Below are positions 56,723-57,472 of a stretch of DNA of 64,000 nt, piece by piece; the stretch's first letter is position 1, and each line of letters opens with the position of its first letter. The notes beneath the pieces are model-generated. The model did no database searches. It was not told where the DNA came from and was given only the letters and a program-made list of their open reading frames with translations. The position numbers and the translations under genes are program-made. The stretch is from Chloroflexota bacterium (GTDB lineage Bacteria; Chloroflexota; Dehalococcoidia; JACQUA01). The stretch covers positions 30,943-94,942 of the forward strand of contig JACQUA010000106.1 in NCBI GenBank assembly GCA_016210565.1, given 5' to 3'.

Positions 56723-57472
56723 TCACCACAGGTTCGCCAGCACGTACTGCGCCGGCCACCCCGAATCCGGAACTCTCTTCGCGGGCGCAATCCCATGCTG
56801 TTCCAGTACCGAATAAAGCTGCCGCAGGTGGTGGATGGTATGGCCGGCCAGGAGGTCCAATCGCTCCGCGCCGCTCCTGGCATTCGCCCCGGCAGGCGCC
56901 GGCGCACGAAGGCTATCCAGATTCGCGGTTGCGGCCCAGCGCCGGACCTGGTCGAGGACGGTCTCCCCGTAGTCAGCGATATCTTGAAACCCGGCGCCCG
57001 GCGGCGCTGCGGTGTCCCAGGTCGCGGGTACCCCTCCGGCCCGCAGGTCTTCCACCGTCCTGGAGACTATGGCGAAGACATGGTGCGCCAGTTCCCGCAT
57101 AGGCCGTTGGCGCTGCGCGATCGACCATTCCAGGAGTCCATCGGGCATTTGCTTCACGGCCTCTATTGCCGCTGCCAGCGCGCGCTCTATGAGAGGGACC
57201 GTTTCCCGGGGGTCGCCGACGGCCGACTTTGTCCCGAGACCGATTAACTGTCCGATCTCGTTCGGGCTGAATCCGGTGACAACCCGGTCTCCTATCACCG
57301 TGGCCGGTATCGACCTGATCCCCAGCGCACGGGCCTCATCCGCTGCGGAGGGATCGTTCTCTATGTCCCGGTTGGTGAACGAGATATCATTCTGTGAAAG
57401 AAACTCTTTCACCCTGGCGCAGGTGGCTCAGCCTTTGCGCGTGTAAACGCGGACCGAAGCATCGGGCGACAT
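56723..57472 (-). CDS. Candidate selenoprotein: glutaredoxin-like domain (UATC redox motif, in-frame UGA at codon 15) fused to a DinB-like domain
   Basis: ATG 57472 with SD AGGAG 8 nt upstream; MSPDASVRVYTRKG(TGA)ATCARVKEFLSQNDISFTNRDIENDPSAADEARALGIRSIPATVIGDRVVTGF...; C-term HTIHHLRQLYSVLEQHGIAP (DinB). Listed ORF 56723..57412 is the part after the UGA. Confidence 0.8.
57394..57412 (-). promoter_or_regulatory. bSECIS-like stem-loop downstream of the in-frame UGA
   Basis: GUGAAAGA-GUU-UCUUUCAC: 8-bp perfect stem, 3-nt loop with first base G, loop 23 nt after the UGA (57428-57430). Confidence 0.65.

Follow-up and report, generated by a model that had tools for sequence, protein, structure and literature searches.

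On the minus strand of the window (the whole stretch of 64,000 nucleotides from a Chloroflexota bacterium analysed here), the reading frame of a glutaredoxin-like gene is interrupted by a UGA codon, and the question is whether this codon ends or damages the gene or is read as selenocysteine (Sec). The preliminary description had noticed a hairpin resembling the bacterial Sec insertion element (bSECIS) shortly after the UGA. Based on the comparisons presented below, we consider it very probable that the hairpin is a bSECIS directing Sec at the UGA of a 249-aa protein composed of a glutaredoxin (Grx) and a DinB domain. The anatomy of the UGA, the hairpin and the protein fold, the conservation, the covariation and the presence of the Sec machinery were all computed directly.

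With the UGA translated as Sec, the gene extends from ATG 57472 over the Sec-UGA (57430-57428) to the stop UGA at 56725-56723 and gives a product of 249 aa (Table 1). The in-frame UGA provides the first residue of a UATC (UxxC) motif, a position that the nucleophilic Cys occupies in glutaredoxins of the CxxC type. Both domain assignments are above the Pfam gathering cut-offs (46.2 vs. 22.9 bits for PF00462 and 31.2 vs. 24.8 bits for PF12867). The AlphaFold model of the 249-aa protein has a mean pLDDT of 88 and a pTM of 0.85, and in Foldseek comparisons its Grx domain matches the dithiol glutaredoxin 7c10 (cGrx1) with a TM-score of 0.94 and its DinB domain the DinB/YfiT protein DR0053 with a TM-score of 0.83, both by target. 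Sec15, Cys18, His131, His211 and His215 are invariant among 14 homologs. In the window the neighboring genes, named by eye, are a type II dehydroquinase-like gene (57753-58202) and two genes for solute-binding-protein-like products (53838-55010 and 55227-56375).

Table 1. Features of the predicted Grx–DinB selenoprotein locus in the window.
Feature	Position	Strand	Basis
Predicted Grx–DinB selenoprotein gene	56723..57472	(-)	Translation with TGA as Sec; homologs aligned full length
Probable ribosome-binding site CAGGAG, 8 nt 5' of ATG	57481..57486	(-)	Sequence
In-frame UGA, predicted Sec15, UATC motif	57428..57430	(-)	Aligned with UGAs of fusion homologs and first CxxC Cys of Cys-glutaredoxins
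Glutaredoxin domain, residues 7-65	57278..57454	(-)	Pfam PF00462 (E=5e-12); model; Foldseek
DinB_2 domain, residues 95-219	56816..57190	(-)	Pfam PF12867 (E=3e-7); invariant columns; Foldseek
Predicted bSECIS hairpin GUGAAAGA-GUU-UCUUUCAC	57394..57412	(-)	Folding, UGA/Cys contrast, covariation, covariance-model scan

The described geometry of the hairpin proved exact on the minus strand: 15 nt (GCCACCUGCGCCAGG) separate the UGA from GUGAAAGA-GUU-UCUUUCAC at 57412-57394, a stem of eight uninterrupted pairs closed by a 3-nt loop with G first, and the spacing from the UGA to the apical loop is 23 nt. The bSECIS consensus comprises a stem of 4-16 bp, an apical loop of 3-9 nt located 16-37 nt after the Sec-UGA, a loop beginning with G followed by U, and a minimum free energy cut-off of -7.5 kcal/mol (PMC13188914). 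The proposed fit to this element holds for the 8-bp stem, the size of the GUU loop, the G within its first two positions and the spacing. RNA folding had also been suggested, and RNAfold returns exactly the 8-bp stem from a 46-nt segment at -12.2 kcal/mol, a value that includes a second small hairpin; the A-U rich stem without flanks reaches -7.1 kcal/mol, slightly short of the published cut-off. An Rfam scan of 57250-57550 gave no match.

Taken alone, the hairpin is weak evidence, because 17 of the 1,936 TGA triplets of the window (0.9%) precede a stem of at least eight Watson-Crick pairs in the bSECIS range and the fold energy z-score against dinucleotide shuffles is only -1.58. Since single-sequence fold z-scores are unimpressive, they were given no weight. 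When the encoded VKEFLSQ and the codon usage nearby are taken into account, the 8-bp stem would arise by chance in 0.4% of cases. Under a synonymous-codon null allowing any hairpin in range, the per-gene median p was 0.04 for UGA genes vs. 0.53 for Cys genes, only a moderate signal for any one gene. The frequency of such stems after TGA triplets and the modest z-score are also what can be said for another explanation, in which an ordinary nonsense mutation has produced a pseudogene (or sequencing has introduced the UGA in error) and the codons for KEFLS form the hairpin by accident.

Fusion relatives were sought in samples giving partial coverage of the host's class (396 genomes), the host's phylum (399) and a second phylum (398), and one locus from a contig search was also taken in. 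Counting the window locus, the yield was 19 Grx–DinB loci of full or nearly full length, and all 19 have TGA at the Sec15 codon; neither a Cys version nor another stop was found at this codon among them. Many other glutaredoxins of the searched genomes carry UGA or Cys. The phylum to which L019 (Pseudalkalibacillus) belongs yielded no fusion in 399 scanned genomes, an empty result that carries no weight there. In one fusion copy (L027:1495-2109, genome G328) the homology to the query does not continue beyond residue 176 and the terminal frame looks unrelated, which suggests a frameshift or an assembly error. A probable ABC-transporter permease gene, named by eye, recurs near the Grx–DinB gene at seven loci (L125-L127, L130, L131, L133 and L135). 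It was not seen in the window and therefore no functional inference is drawn from the neighborhood.

Of 43 distinct UGA glutaredoxins, 42 have 6 bp or more of stem at the same register, vs. 2 of 30 homologs with Cys (Fisher p about 1e-16, a value that ignores sequence relatedness). Since KEFLS is conserved at the peptide level, coding accounts for some of the nucleotide conservation. SelA was above the cut-off in 29 of the 36 genomes with UGA glutaredoxins, with fragments in three and none in four, and in 17 of the 27 genomes with Cys sequences, with a fragment in one and none in nine. Several of the SelA-less genomes are incomplete drafts; G741, the bearer of fusion L018, has no SelA match above the cut-off. 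One Cys (TGT) glutaredoxin, L051:1489-1728, keeps a SECIS-like stem (CGAAAG-AGUAC-CUUUCG), and no SelA match was found in its genome, G332. This stem is possibly a relic SECIS left after Sec-to-Cys replacement.

Covariation among UGA homologs had been set beforehand as the refutation test, and stem and UGA were found to co-occur and covary. When 55 distinct UGA sequences are aligned without gaps, 86.8% of the stem cells pair and double changes occur in five of the eight pairs. There are 35 double-change cells vs. 9.6 in shuffles (none of 500 shuffles reached the observed count), although the sequences are related and the counts are not independent events. The main swaps are U-A/C-G in pair 2, G-C/A-U in pair 1 and A-U/G-C/C-G in pair 8. 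When the partner strand is slid by 1-3 columns, a smaller percentage of cells pair, double changes become fewer and the covariation score drops, and the true register beats every slide in paired and double-change cells. RNAalifold gave no consensus structure for all 55 UGA sequences, which we attribute to mixed loop registers among subfamilies and to weak A-U pairs; with 15 fusion sequences it did return the stem, with 7 bp and -5.9 kcal/mol. Judged over these sequence sets, the joint conservation of stem and UGA across relatives far exceeds chance.

The covariance model R1 was run over the whole 6.5-Mb genome and returned four sites at E<=1: the window, L022/L061, L023 and the new L144. All four lie at the UGA of a glutaredoxin UxxC motif; because relatives of these genes made up the training set of R1, the scan is a test of specificity and not of discovery. 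The host genome contains three more UGA (UxxC) glutaredoxin genes, at L022:1504-2022, L023:1489-1737 and L144 (minus strand, about 1590-1320). One of these paralogs has a C-terminal extension that is PDZ-like by eye, and L023 and L144 each adjoin a thioredoxin-reductase-like gene. The hairpins of L023 (GUCAAGA-GGU-UCUUGAC) and L144 (GCCAAGA-GGU-UCUUGGC) differ by a compensatory U-A to C-G swap.

The suggestion that the hairpin lowers the odds of a simple nonsense mutation was borne out. The same UGA in 19 fusion loci and in dozens of other glutaredoxins, the lack of Cys or another stop at this codon in the fusions, the intact DinB domain with invariant histidines and the absence of the stem from most Cys homologs all speak against a pseudogene or a sequencing error, and we regard either as very improbable. 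Equally improbable is the possibility that the UGA really terminates translation and that a restart follows at GTG 57412. An open reading frame for a 229-aa protein does begin there, but its product would be devoid of the active site: of the Grx fold, both beta strand 1 and the UxxC motif would be missing. Homologs conserve the peptide encoded ahead of the UGA, and the CAGGAG site precedes the upstream ATG.

Reading of the UGA as Sec requires the corresponding machinery, and the host assembly (94% complete, 6.4% contamination) contains SelA (550 bits), SelB (355 bits) and a tRNA-Sec with the anticodon UCA, found by both Infernal (71 bits) and ARAGORN; selA, selB and selC are on contigs other than that of the window. 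SelD is encoded at L001:129-1184 (G000:C415) with selB just downstream. Its gene has one in-frame TGA in the context CAG-U-AAK, followed by a 7-bp hairpin with a GGA loop (GUCCAGG-GGA-CCUGGAC, -10.0 kcal/mol), and the host SelD is itself a predicted selenoprotein. The full Sec pathway is encoded by the host assembly. There is also literature on Sec in Dehalogenimonas (PMC4918011). The idea that the UGA is suppressed by Trp or Cys and that the hairpin merely stimulates read-through is the least credible of all: hairpins could promote generic read-through and computation does not identify the inserted residue, but the tRNA-Sec (UCA) and SelA/SelB/SelD are present, and the Cys of homologs at this position together with the bSECIS geometry points to Sec.

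With the hairpin taken as a bSECIS, SelB binding, read-through, the selenium content of the product, metal binding and a catalytic role are what we infer for the locus. Following the established pathway, the hairpin in the mRNA just 3' of the UGA would recruit SelB·GTP·Sec-tRNA-Sec, and SelB would deliver selenocysteine at the UGA in place of termination by release factor. The product would carry an N-terminal glutaredoxin-fold domain, whose predicted active site is Sec-Ala-Thr-Cys, and at its C-terminus a DinB/S-transferase-like four-helix domain in which three histidines form a putative metal site. It is probably a selenol-thiol oxidoreductase, in which the Grx domain may reduce a disulfide or a mixed thiol adduct linked to or handled by the S-transferase-like DinB domain.

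Sec-containing glutaredoxin (UxxC, PF00462) is a verified selenoprotein, and glutaredoxins are small oxidoreductases (PMC13188914). The window protein shares with them the Grx fold, the U/CxxC site and the sequence match, the nearest solved fold being 7c10, but it differs in having an additional C-terminal DinB_2 domain. This domain shares the four-helix bundle, the His triad and the H-xxx-H spacing with DinB/YfiT S-transferase-like proteins (BstA-H of B. subtilis, DR0053), and the metal triad of BstA is formed by H67/H160/H164 (PMC5815605). Here the domain is fused to a Sec-glutaredoxin, and the likeness to BstA is in the His pattern only. In two-domain S-transferase-like enzymes thiol transfer is reported to be performed by the DinB domain and the second domain has been suggested to drive specificity (PMC5815605). 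A redoxin-type domain joined to another domain is also found in the HUGP/GUXX-star and Trx7/PDZ selenoproteins (PMC13188914, Table 1), but their partner domains differ from DinB_2, and the window protein scores 25.8 bits against a cut-off of 325 with the NCBIfam HUGP/GUXX-star model. None of the NCBIfam redoxin/selenoprotein models (Uxx_star, GlrX_YruB, HUGP/GUXX-star) was above its cut-off, the best being TIGR02196 (68.3 vs. 88.55 bits).

The hairpin adds a further example to a known class of elements and Sec-glutaredoxins (UxxC) are known as well, while the 119 prokaryotic selenoprotein families inventoried in 2026 do not include the Grx–DinB architecture (PMC13188914). A literature search, with subscription papers and preprints outside its range, gave no paper joining "selenoprotein" with "DinB family." We tentatively propose, with a little less than even confidence, that these proteins form a Sec-only, metal-dependent S-transferase-like Grx–DinB family, present mainly in the host's phylum, rare in a second phylum and with no Cys version, which would act as a selenium-dependent thiol-transfer/reduction enzyme using some low-molecular-weight thiol.

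The Sec-containing Grx–DinB protein adds an architecture beyond the 2026 inventory (PMC13188914), one that annotation pipelines will probably cut short at the UGA. The contrast between UGA and Cys genes, together with the stem, possibly a relic, of a Cys gene in a genome with no SelA match, offers a case of SECIS constraint shaping protein sequence. In the Grx–DinB protein a thiol-transferase-like, metal-dependent domain would be coupled to the redox chemistry of Sec, and the protein thereby bears on the thiol used by these lineages.
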